Shown: one piece after another, positions 2,236-6,672 of the stretch
Position numbering within the stretch: the first letter of the stretch is position 1
Layout: every line of letters starts with the position of its first letter
Program-made: the position numbers and the translations under genes
NCBI GenBank assembly: GCA_021774575.1
Contig: JAJFIX010000037.1
Coordinates: forward strand, 62,001-126,000
DNA: 64,000 bases
Direction of reading: 5' to 3'
From: Alphaproteobacteria bacterium
Lineage (GTDB): Bacteria > Pseudomonadota > Alphaproteobacteria > UBA6615
The notes under the pieces: generated by a model
Database searches by the model: none
Told to the model about the DNA's origin: nothing
What the model saw: only the letters and a program-made list of their open reading frames with translations

Positions 2236-5200
2236 ATGCTGAACAGGGGATGGGGCCGTTTTGGGGCTGGTGGGCTGGTTGGATCCGTATTGGTTGGATC
2301 AGTGGCGCTGCTTGGGGCTTGGGCTCAAAGTGCAAATGCGCAGACGCCGAACGTCGGGGCGACGGGCAACGGCGTTCTTGCCGACCTATTGCAGGCGCGA
2401 CTGGCAAATATAGTTGCCGGTGCATCCGGATTAGGGTCGGAATTTGAAATGGCCGGGCATGAGGCCGGTGGGGGGCCGATGCTTCGGTCCGACCCAAATA
2501 TTGTTCACGATTTTATGCAGTTTGACGCCGCGCCCTGCCCACAAGGCGCGGAAACTAAGCAATATGAATTCGCCGCGATCCGGTTGCGGATCAATCTCAA
2601 TCGCTGGGGGGATCACGATCCCGAAGGCTTCATGTTTGCGCCGATAGACGCGCTGGATGAGATTGCGACAAGGTCGCGCAAGCAGGCGAACGGCGATTTC
2701 GGACTATCCCTCGGGCTTGCCGGGGACCCGATTCAACCGCTGACGGTCAGGGCGAATGTCGGCGATTGCATTCGCCTGGTCATGTCGAACCTGTTGGAAC
2801 AGCCGACCAGTTTTCATGTCCACGGCGCCGATTTGATTATTGCCGCCACCGGCGAGCCGGCGCTTTCGACCAATCCGGATTCGACCGCTCTGCCGGGTGA
2901 AACCATTGTCTATGAATGGTATGTAAACCCAGAGCATTATCAAGAAAACACCCATTACGCCCATCCCCACGGGCCCGGCGCGCGATTTCAAGTCAGTCAC
3001 GGTTTGTTCGCTGCGGTGATTGTTGAACCCGAGAGATCGGAATATTTTGACCCAAGGACCGCAAGCTCACTGTGTGAGGCGCGCCAAGGTAATGGTGTGC
3101 GGAAATGCCGGAACTCCTGGGATGCAATGATCTCGCCGGGGGAGGGCGAGGATTTTCGTGAATTTGCCATGTTCTATCATGAAATCGGTCACGAAAATTT
3201 TGTGCCGATCAATTCCAGCGGTGGTTTTATACCGCTTTTCGACCCCTTCACCGGCACCTATAAACCGGCGGGTCGCGCGATAAATTATCGCAGTGAATCC
3301 TTCCTCCGCCGGATGCGTGAAATTGAGGCCCAGGTGCCGTTTTACAACGACTGGCATCCCGACGAAGCGCTGGCCTATTCCTCCTATGCCTTTGGTGATC
3401 CGGCGACGCCGGTGCCCCAATCCTATCTCGGTGACCCGGCAAAATACCGTCTTATTCATGGCGGCAGCGAAGTCTTTCACGTGCCGCATTTACATGGCGG
3501 CGGTGTGCAATGGCAGCGCCAGCCCGACGTCGGCCGGGGGGAAGATAATTTTGTGCCGCTGAATGGCGGCCTGACAAAGCAGTTCGCCTCATCCATGCCC
3601 AGTTCGGGCAATGATTCCCAGACCATCGGACCATCGGAAACCTATGAACTTGAAATCGGTTGCGGGTCCGGGGGCTGTCAGCAATCGGTCGGCGATTTCC
3701 TGTTTCACTGTCATATTGCCTCCCACTATATCGCCGGGATGTGGCATTTCTGGCGGGTCTATAACACCCTGCAAGATACCGGCGGCAAGACCGACCAGCT
3801 GGCCACCCTAGCTGAATTGCCCGATCGCCAAGGAGATATCGAGCCGGCAGTGACTTCCCAAGGGTTGATCGGCCGCACCGTCGCGTTTTCCGGCGAGGAA
3901 ATCAATATTGACGCTGGGTCGATGCCTGGACTGGTCGAGGCGCAACTGCCGCCCCAAGGCTTGCCCCGCGACGCGCAAGATGCGCAGGTTTTCGATTGGG
4001 TCCGCGAGGGGGACCTTTACCTCAACGAGCCCGAGAGCCAATTTATCTGGCCGAATTTCCGCTCCCCAAATCCGGGGCAACGCCCCGCCTTTCGTTTCGC
4101 CGCCGACACGGGAAAGCTTGCCTGGCCGTTTTTGCGCCCCCATTTAGGCAAGCGTCCACCGTTTGCGCCACATCACGGTCCAGCCCCCTATCTCGCGCCG
4201 CTCGCCCATGAAAACGATGCGCCACCGGCGCCGGGTGCGAACGGTGAGGCGAGCCTCTGTCCGACCCAGGCGCCACGCCGTGATTTCAATATTCATGCCA
4301 TTCAAACACCGATCCGCATGGCGCCGCGTCGGGTCGAAGAAAACGGCATGTTGTTTGTTTTGCAGGAGCATGAAAACAAAGCCCGCACCCAAGATGAGTT
4401 CAAAGTGCCGCTGGCGATACGGGCCAATCAGGGTGACTGTGTGGACGTCGTTCTGGTCAACGAGCTCGATGGTGTTTCCATTCCGGGGCGCGAGTTACCC
4501 GAACTTCTAAAAACAAATATGCACATCCATTTTGTGCAATTCGACGTGCAGGCGTCCGATGGTGTGCCAACGGGCGCGGCGTATGAACAGGCGCCGCGAT
4601 CTTTTACCCAAGACGGGCTGGCGGTTTCAGTAACCCAAGCCGCGTCACCGGGGGAAACGCGCCTCTCGGTTGGCGACCCGTCGCTCTTTCACATCGGGTC
4701 CGTGGTGGCCGTCGGCATTGACCAGCCGCGTGAGGTTTTTGAAACGGCAACGGTAACTGGATTTGAGGCCAACACGCTGATCCTTGCCGAACCATTGTTG
4801 AATGCGCATCGACAAGGGGAATTGGTCAGCGCCGAGTTTGTTCGCTATCGCTGGTATGTCGCCCGCCAAAACGGGGCGATATACTTTCATGACCATGTCG
4901 ACGCCTTGGTGCGCTGGGGGCGGGGCCTGTTTGGCGCCTTGATTGCCGAGCCCCGCGACGCGACCTATCACGATCCGCGGACCGGCGCCGAAATAACCAG
5001 TGGCCCGATTGCCGATATTCATACCGAGCGCGAAGTCGTGCCCGGTCTCGATGGCAGCTTCCGTGAATATGTTCTCTTCATGACCGACCGAAATCCGCAG
5101 ACCGGTAGCGCAATAAATATGCGTGCTGATCCGCTGTTTGCAGGTGGAAGCCGTCTCTTCGGCACATCGAGCCGTGGAAACTCACCGCCGGATTTGATTA

Positions 5201-6672
5201 TGAGCAGCGGGGTGAATGGCGACCCCGTGACTCCGATCTTGCGGGCCTATGCCGGCGATCCGATTATGCTCCGGCTGCTAACCACCGCAACTGAGGAAAT
5301 CCACCCCTTCACGATTACCGGCCACCAGTTTCGCCAAGAACGTTTTCAGGCGAACTCGCCGCTGATCAATAGTGTTGGTTTGGGGGTCTCTGAACGGTTT
5401 AACGGCTATATCGCGTCTGCTGGTGGGGCGAGTAAGCAGGCTGGTGACTATATTTATTATAATGGCACAGAGCGCCATTTCGAGCGCGGTGTCTGGGGGT
5501 TGATGCGGGTCTATGGGGCGTTGACCGACGCGCTGTTGCCGCTGCCGGGCCGCGATCCGGCTGCGGTACAGGCGCGCCAATCGGGCGATCCATGCCCCAG
5601 TGATGCGCCGGTCAGGGCATTCACGGTCAGCATCATCGGTGTGCCAACGACGATAGATGACGGCAGCGGTTCGCGTTTGGTCAACGGGCGCCGCTACGTT
5701 TTGCGCAACCCTGGCGCCCAAGTCGGGTTTCTATCCGACCGCGACCCGCCAATGGTTCTGCGTGCCAATGCTGGGGATTGCGTTGAAATAGATCTGACTA
5801 ATCGGTCCGGCGGCGTTGCTGGGTTGACCATTGAAGGCGGCAATTTTAATCCCGAAGACGCCTATGGCGCCGAAATTGGGCGCGGCAATCGGCGAGGCAT
5901 TGGGCCCGGAGGAAACAAAGTCTTTCGCACCTATCTGCCCGATGAATTGGGCATTGTTCGTATCCGCGATTTCTCGCGACCTTTTTTCAATGCCTCGTTG
6001 GGCCTCTATGGTGCAATCATCGTCGAGCCGAAAGGCGCGACCTATCATGACCCGGAAACCGACATTGTCCTGGAAAGTGGGGTGGAGGCGGTCATTCGAT
6101 TGCCCGACGGCAGCTATTTCCGGGAATTTGTGACCCTGTTTGCCGACCGGGACCCTGAAATCGGCACCTTCGTCATGCCCTATGATGTGTCGGTCGACGG
6201 TGACGCGAAGGTAAATAATCGCTCCACGCCGCTTGGGCCGCGAATACAGCGGTTGGGGCGCCGGAGGCCGGCTCGCCAAGCCCATCTCTTTACCGATGAA
6301 TTTGCCGGCCCGCCCTTTACCCCGGTTTTTGTCGCGCAAGTGGGCGAGCAAATTCGAATGCGGGTCCTCAGCGTCTTTTCCGAGCAGCCCCAGGTGTTTT
6401 CCGTCGAAGGCCATGATTGGGCGCTGACACCCAGTTTGCCGGGATCCGATATCGTCAGTTCGCGTTTGCTGCAATCGGGCGGGGCGCTAAATCTTGAATT
6501 GCGTCATGCGGGTGGAGCGCAGGGACGTCCCGGCGATTATCTCTGGTCCAACCACCGGATGCCGTTTCTCGAGGCGGGCCAGTGGGGGCTGCTGCGCATA
6601 TTACCCAAGCAACCGGATGCGGCGTTTGGTCCCCGGCGCGATATCCAGCTCTTTACCCAAAGAAGGCTGTAA
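2236..6672 (+). CDS. giant triplicated multicopper oxidase-like protein
   Basis: 1478 residues from ATG 2236 (an in-frame TTG at 2224 is the alternative). A signal peptide ends near residue 36. The protein is three tandem units, each opening with RAN-x-GDC (residues 172-178, 729-735, 1176-1182) and each ending with a GDY/F...W motif. Unit 1 has a full oxidase ligand set: H194-x-H196, H243-x-H245, H415-x2-H418-x-H420 and H491-C492-H493-x3-H497-x4-M502. Unit 2 keeps H763-x-H765 and H885-x-H887, but the HCH is Tyr-Asn-Gly (1075-1077) and the axial Met is Val. Unit 3 has lost nearly all ligands. Size and domain number recall large oxidases such as MnxG and MofA, which are linked to Mn(II) oxidation. 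Likely a periplasmic or extracellular four-copper oxidase of unknown substrate. Oxidase family is firm; manganese specificity is speculation. Confidence 0.85.
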   Translation: MLNRGWGRFGAGGLVGSVLVGSVALLGAWAQSANAQTPNVGATGNGVLADLLQARLANIVAGASGLGSEFEMAGHEAGGGPMLRSDPNIVHDFMQFDAAPCPQGAETKQYEFAAIRLRINLNRWGDHDPEGFMFAPIDALDEIATRSRKQANGDFGLSLGLAGDPIQPLTVRANVGDCIRLVMSNLLEQPTSFHVHGADLIIAATGEPALSTNPDSTALPGETIVYEWYVNPEHYQENTHYAHPHGPGARFQVSHGLFAAVIVEPERSEYFDPRTASSLCEARQGNGVRKCRNSWDAMISPGEGEDFREFAMFYHEIGHENFVPINSSGGFIPLFDPFTGTYKPAGRAINYRSESFLRRMREIEAQVPFYNDWHPDEALAYSSYAFGDPATPVPQSYLGDPAKYRLIHGGSEVFHVPHLHGGGVQWQRQPDVGRGEDNFVPLNGGLTKQFASSMPSSGNDSQTIGPSETYELEIGCGSGGCQQSVGDFLFHCHIASHYIAGMWHFWRVYNTLQDTGGKTDQLATLAELPDRQGDIEPAVTSQGLIGRTVAFSGEEINIDAGSMPGLVEAQLPPQGLPRDAQDAQVFDWVREGDLYLNEPESQFIWPNFRSPNPGQRPAFRFAADTGKLAWPFLRPHLGKRPPFAPHHGPAPYLAPLAHENDAPPAPGANGEASLCPTQAPRRDFNIHAIQTPIRMAPRRVEENGMLFVLQEHENKARTQDEFKVPLAIRANQGDCVDVVLVNELDGVSIPGRELPELLKTNMHIHFVQFDVQASDGVPTGAAYEQAPRSFTQDGLAVSVTQAASPGETRLSVGDPSLFHIGSVVAVGIDQPREVFETATVTGFEANTLILAEPLLNAHRQGELVSAEFVRYRWYVARQNGAIYFHDHVDALVRWGRGLFGALIAEPRDATYHDPRTGAEITSGPIADIHTEREVVPGLDGSFREYVLFMTDRNPQTGSAINMRADPLFAGGSRLFGTSSRGNSPPDLIMSSGVNGDPVTPILRAYAGDPIMLRLLTTATEEIHPFTITGHQFRQERFQANSPLINSVGLGVSERFNGYIASAGGASKQAGDYIYYNGTERHFERGVWGLMRVYGALTDALLPLPGRDPAAVQARQSGDPCPSDAPVRAFTVSIIGVPTTIDDGSGSRLVNGRRYVLRNPGAQVGFLSDRDPPMVLRANAGDCVEIDLTNRSGGVAGLTIEGGNFNPEDAYGAEIGRGNRRGIGPGGNKVFRTYLPDELGIVRIRDFSRPFFNASLGLYGAIIVEPKGATYHDPETDIVLESGVEAVIRLPDGSYFREFVTLFADRDPEIGTFVMPYDVSVDGDAKVNNRSTPLGPRIQRLGRRRPARQAHLFTDEFAGPPFTPVFVAQVGEQIRMRVLSVFSEQPQVFSVEGHDWALTPSLPGSDIVSSRLLQSGGALNLELRHAGGAQGRPGDYLWSNHRMPFLEAGQWGLLRILPKQPDAAFGPRRDIQLFTQRRL

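Follow-up and report, generated by a model that had tools for sequence, protein, structure and literature searches.

The 64,000-nucleotide stretch of DNA analysed here (the window) carries, on its forward strand at positions 2236–6672, an open reading frame for a six-domain multicopper oxidase of 1478 amino acids, which runs from the ATG at 2236 with zero internal stops; a TTG at 2224 is an alternative start. Residues 1–35 (2236–2340, forward strand; SANA followed by Q at the putative cleavage point) form a probable Sec signal peptide, recognized by sequence pattern only, and this N-terminus fits an exported protein. A small cytochrome c (Pfam Cytochrom_C) is encoded upstream on the same strand at 1647–2030, starting from the ATG at 1647 or a GTG at 1611, and a divergent, plastocyanin-like cupredoxin with a Tat-like, lipoprotein-like N-terminus (Pfam Copper-bind) occupies 845–1363 on the reverse strand. 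The cytochrome c is separated from the oxidase by a strong inverted repeat (2059–2091) with a 13-bp perfect stem, a z-score of -7.7 and no T run, which exists as a single copy within the window. Neither the cytochrome c nor the cupredoxin was conserved at the paralogue or relative loci examined. The cytochrome c was considered as a conserved partner of the oxidase and rejected, because it is missing from the other loci and is separated from the oxidase by the strong hairpin.

The chain is composed of three homologous units, each a pair of cupredoxin domains (D1–D6). The RAN, xY, FRE, GL and GD motifs pointed out in a preliminary description of this DNA each occur three times, in the same order in every unit, whereas the chance expectation per shuffled protein is 0 to 0.03 for each of the five. 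All three pairs of units matched one another in blastp comparisons (units 1 and 2, 5e-19; units 2 and 3, 3e-27; units 1 and 3, 1e-12), while 0 of 600 shuffled units did so, and the tandem triplication proposed in that description is thereby confirmed, as is the stepwise loss of copper ligands across the units when these are inventoried residue by residue. D1 (residues ~98–270; 2527–3045, forward strand) was delimited by a Pfam Cu-oxidase_3 match at residues 170–267 and by comparison of the units. It resembles the first domain of the two-domain (small) laccases; these, however, are trimers of two-domain chains, whereas the oxidase here consists of three fused units, two of which are degraded.

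Unit 1 has every type of ligand. On the forward strand, D1 contains two HxH pairs, H194/H196 (2815–2823) and H243/H245 (2962–2970), and D2 contains an HxxHxH motif (3478–3495), in which H415, H418 and H420 are assigned to type-1, type-2 and type-3 copper, respectively, by the multicopper oxidase rule, followed by HCHxxxHxxxxM (3706–3741; H491, C492, H493, H497 and M502). Unit 2 retains two HxH pairs in D3, H763/H765 (4522–4530) and H885/H887 (4888–4896), which are separated by an insert at residues ~787–866 (4594–4833) recognized in the alignment, whereas D4 has Y1075-N1076-G1077 at the HCH position and V1086 at that of the axial Met. These entries of the preliminary description were exact on re-reading. 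Its ligand list had nevertheless missed H1023 (5302–5304) and H1081 (5476–5478; Lys in relative L035), two type-1 His remnants of D4 whose Cys and Met positions are filled by N1076 and V1086, and also H1440 (6553–6555), which stands in D6 at the third HCH position, a type-3 ligand position. HxxHxH is gone from D6, as are two of the three HCH positions; with H1440 the only trinuclear ligand position left in that domain, a complete, ceruloplasmin-type D1/D6 ligand set is absent.

The sole solved full-length relative found was MnxG, the Bacillus Mn(II) oxidase (PDB 9bxa; E=3e-92). Both proteins have six cupredoxin domains and are collinear over D1–D4 at least: residues 109–538, 664–786 and 865–1123 align with MnxG 4–384, 427–552 and 555–812, respectively. 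They share the same D2 and D3 copper motifs, which in 9bxa read HVFHYH and HCHLYPAFGIGM in D2, and HIHFVKFD and FFHDH, facing pairs 763/765 and 885/887, in D3. MnxG differs in lacking the D3 insert and the D1 HxH pairs, the first of which is replaced by HFQ while the second is missing. Kinship with the MnxG-type oxidases, as anticipated, is therefore sound; the NCBIfam MnxG model (NF041487) also matched, but with 148 bits, far under its equivalog cut-off of 3100. The oxidase is ~30% identical to Priestia homologues. In chain A of 9bxa, the residue that is the second type-1 His of other MnxG proteins is an Ala, at position 340 by alignment count, and the chain is probably an engineered variant.

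An alignment of 21 six-domain proteins was assembled, including three from the source genome and relatives from Chloroflexi, Fraserbacteria and Acidimicrobiia assemblies; its distant members came from plasmids of Streptomyces, haloarchaea, Priestia, Rubrobacter, Pseudonocardia, Microvirga, Hymenobacter and Sphingobium. All 21 proteins have the D2 HxxHxH, and 20 have the D2 HCHxxxH. All four D3 His are found in 19 of the 20 proteins having D3 sequence (H763/H765 in 20, H885/H887 in 19), and the sole exception, from Pseudonocardia, is also without the D2 HCH. In contrast, all four D1 His (H194, H196, H243 and H245) exist in six proteins, and three of the four in a seventh (L016, in which H194 is replaced by Ser). 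These seven proteins, with 45–61% identity, form one clade with 100/100 support, outside which H243 and H245 do not occur together. The D3 insert (~80 residues) occurs in this clade and in its Streptomyces/Chloroflexi sister group, and is not found in MnxG or the haloarchaeal proteins. Two further His are invariant in the clade: H240, where two distant haloarchaeal proteins also have His, and H687, which is not His in any other aligned protein. Two Chloroflexi-class relatives (L036 and L037, genome G1043) form part of fused frames with lengths of 4529 and 2359 residues, and CopC/CopD-like or cytochrome-like genes were seen near them by eye. The viral contigs searched contained no relatives.

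Since nearly all of the proteins have the D2 and D3 ligands whereas the D1 ligands are clade-specific, the trinuclear cluster common to these proteins would be formed by D2 and D3, and not by D1 and D2. The survey of PMC3600357 agrees: every prokaryotic six-domain oxidase that it covers has the trinuclear site between D2 and D3, the bacterial ones have type-1 copper in D2 only, and in six-domain proteins such sites were found only at D2/D3 or D1/D6. The preliminary description had instead taken unit 1 for a self-sufficient oxidase, which implies a D1/D2 cluster, and the HxH pairs of unit 2 for a possible extra metal site. Unit 1 does hold all of the ligand motifs in laccase order; however, the D1 pairs are missing outside the clade, MnxG included, and a D1/D2 cluster would correspond to neither of the two locations on record, so that we consider this arrangement highly improbable. 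Placing the cluster at D2/D3 means that unit 1 does not suffice by itself and that the unit-2 pairs, which align with those of MnxG, would be catalytic rather than additional; as they are taken up by the cluster, the surplus His set belongs to unit 1 and not to unit 2. Nor is the arrangement new, as had been supposed, because the D2/D3 site is already part of that survey and the ligand pattern recurs in close homologues, among them the two other copies in the source genome. The protein is thus very probably an exported, MnxG-like six-domain oxidase with type-1 copper in D2, a trinuclear cluster at D2/D3, and D4–D6 of mostly structural role. This reading builds on the domains, ligands, homology and conservation described above. 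An AlphaFold model of residues 98–1112, made from a four-sequence alignment, reached a pLDDT of 32, the alignment being too shallow; the geometry of the cluster is therefore drawn from MnxG homology, conservation and PMC3600357, and not from coordinates.

In multicopper oxidases, electrons taken up by the type-1 copper travel along a Cys-His bridge to the trinuclear cluster and there reduce O2. The copper loading, electron path and substrate that we infer for the present protein follow this scheme. The type-1 copper of D2 (H415, C492, H497 and M502) would receive single electrons from a reductant that is probably a metal ion, for instance Mn(II), Fe(II) or Cu(I), and these would cross the HCH bridge to the cluster at the D2/D3 interface, where O2 would be reduced to water; the cluster ligands would be H418, H420, H491 and H493 of unit 1 and H763, H765, H885 and H887 of unit 2, and D4–D6 would serve mostly as a scaffold. 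A metal-ion reductant is likely from the kinship to MnxG and ceruloplasmin. The substrate of MnxG itself is not transferable, because the score of 148 bits against 3100 places the protein too far from MnxG. No MnxE- or MnxF-like neighbours were noticed among the open reading frames and family matches inspected beside the three copies.

The two full-length paralogues in the same 3.5-Mb genome (L006:4842–9320 and L007:5873–10396) have ~60% identity. The gene was found in none of 23 other genomes of the source order, and relatives occurred in only a handful of the ~700 genomes sampled from the class and phylum. Near relatives exist in three other phyla, and among the three source copies the one on C37 branches earliest in the tree. 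The tree and the presence in these phyla make it likely that the gene was transferred horizontally and then duplicated twice locally. Near the third copy (at L007:3614–5050) there are a small open reading frame without a family match, which by eye resembles a truncated globin, and a gene for a 2Fe-2S/FAD reductase. A link of the second copy (C31) to iron uptake was considered and rejected, as the adjoining ABC transporter is best matched by 2-aminoethylphosphonate models, well under their cut-off.

Directly 3' of the C37 oxidase copy is a gene for a 720-aa protein, homologues of which (56–64% identity) immediately follow the oxidase in its Chloroflexi, Fraserbacteria and Acidimicrobiia relatives, so that the pair is found in four phyla (partner genes at L006:9334–11496, L014:6811–8412, L015:14397–16574 and L040:530–2689). 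This conserved, probably exported protein of ~720 aa is a candidate partner of the oxidase. The source genome has one partner gene, the window copy and the third copy being without it, and a more distant homologue, from another Chloroflexi-class genome, is without an oxidase gene in its neighbourhood. Sequence and profile searches of the PDB gave nothing credible, and Pfam and NCBIfam gave no family, the one hit being a Tat signal of the Fraserbacteria copy (L015); no homologue was found in the plasmids searched. An AlphaFold model of the L015 protein from a two-sequence alignment had a pLDDT of 30.

The sole unusual feature of the oxidase is the leftover copper-type His set in D1. PMC3600357 describes the six domains as a ring in which D1 packs on D6, an arrangement established for ceruloplasmin, so that the four D1 His and H1440 would face each other. 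The set looks like a remnant of the cluster at ceruloplasmin's D1/D6 position, or possibly a second metal site there. Ceruloplasmin and hephaestin, the animal ferroxidases, share the six-domain plan derived from a triplicated two-domain unit, and ligands of their D1/D6 kind are partly present here; their cluster, however, is at D1/D6 and their type-1 copper in D2, D4 and D6, whereas the present protein has the complete D2/D3 set and has mostly lost its D6 ligands. The proteins of the PMC3600357 set (MofA/MCO-like, Pseudomonas putida MnxG and haloarchaeal oxidases, and also algal Fox) have the trinuclear site at D2/D3, as is probable here, the prokaryotic ones with type-1 copper in D2 only, but the present clade differs from them in retaining four D1 His and one D6 His.

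We lean, without great assurance, to the view that the D1 His are neutral, metal-free relics. According to PMC3600357, the six-domain enzymes would go back to a tripled two-domain oxidase that had three trinuclear sites, of which each case studied retains at most one, at D2/D3 or D1/D6; it also remarks on residual ligands at D1/D6 in prokaryotic six-domain oxidases, and D4 likewise holds relic type-1 His. The relics would, on the other hand, have been kept at a clade identity of 45–61%, which is above neutral expectation, though weakly so: across the six full clade members the four D1 His and H1440 never vary, whereas invariance holds for 12 of 26 background His (p=0.036) and for 30% of all columns, in a comparison that covers one clade of seven sequences and is phylogenetically confounded. 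These same counts speak, weakly, for a second, functional site at D1/D6 beside the D2/D3 cluster, of a reduced type-3-like copper form or with Fe or Mn. At the H1440 position all seven clade members have His, as does one (L038) of the 13 other proteins with D6 sequence, and the single loss in the clade, H194 to Ser, strikes a type-2 position while the type-3 positions remain. Because D6 has neither HxxHxH nor two of the three HCH positions, such a site seems rather unlikely. The five His offer a suggestive but weak hint of a reduced metal site, and a clade with two inter-domain metal sites, namely a full MnxG-type D2/D3 cluster and a reduced, functional site at the ceruloplasmin position, is accordingly a doubtful proposal.

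For the claim originally made for this gene, the outcome is mainly corrective, in that the arrangement had been described already. Having a complete D2/D3 set and, of the D1/D6 set, nearly all of the D1 half, the clade helps to connect both known arrangements and offers a concrete target for mutagenesis. If it does have two sites, it would represent a living intermediate between these arrangements, and two-site oxidases in several phyla would be accompanied by an exported protein of no recognized family.
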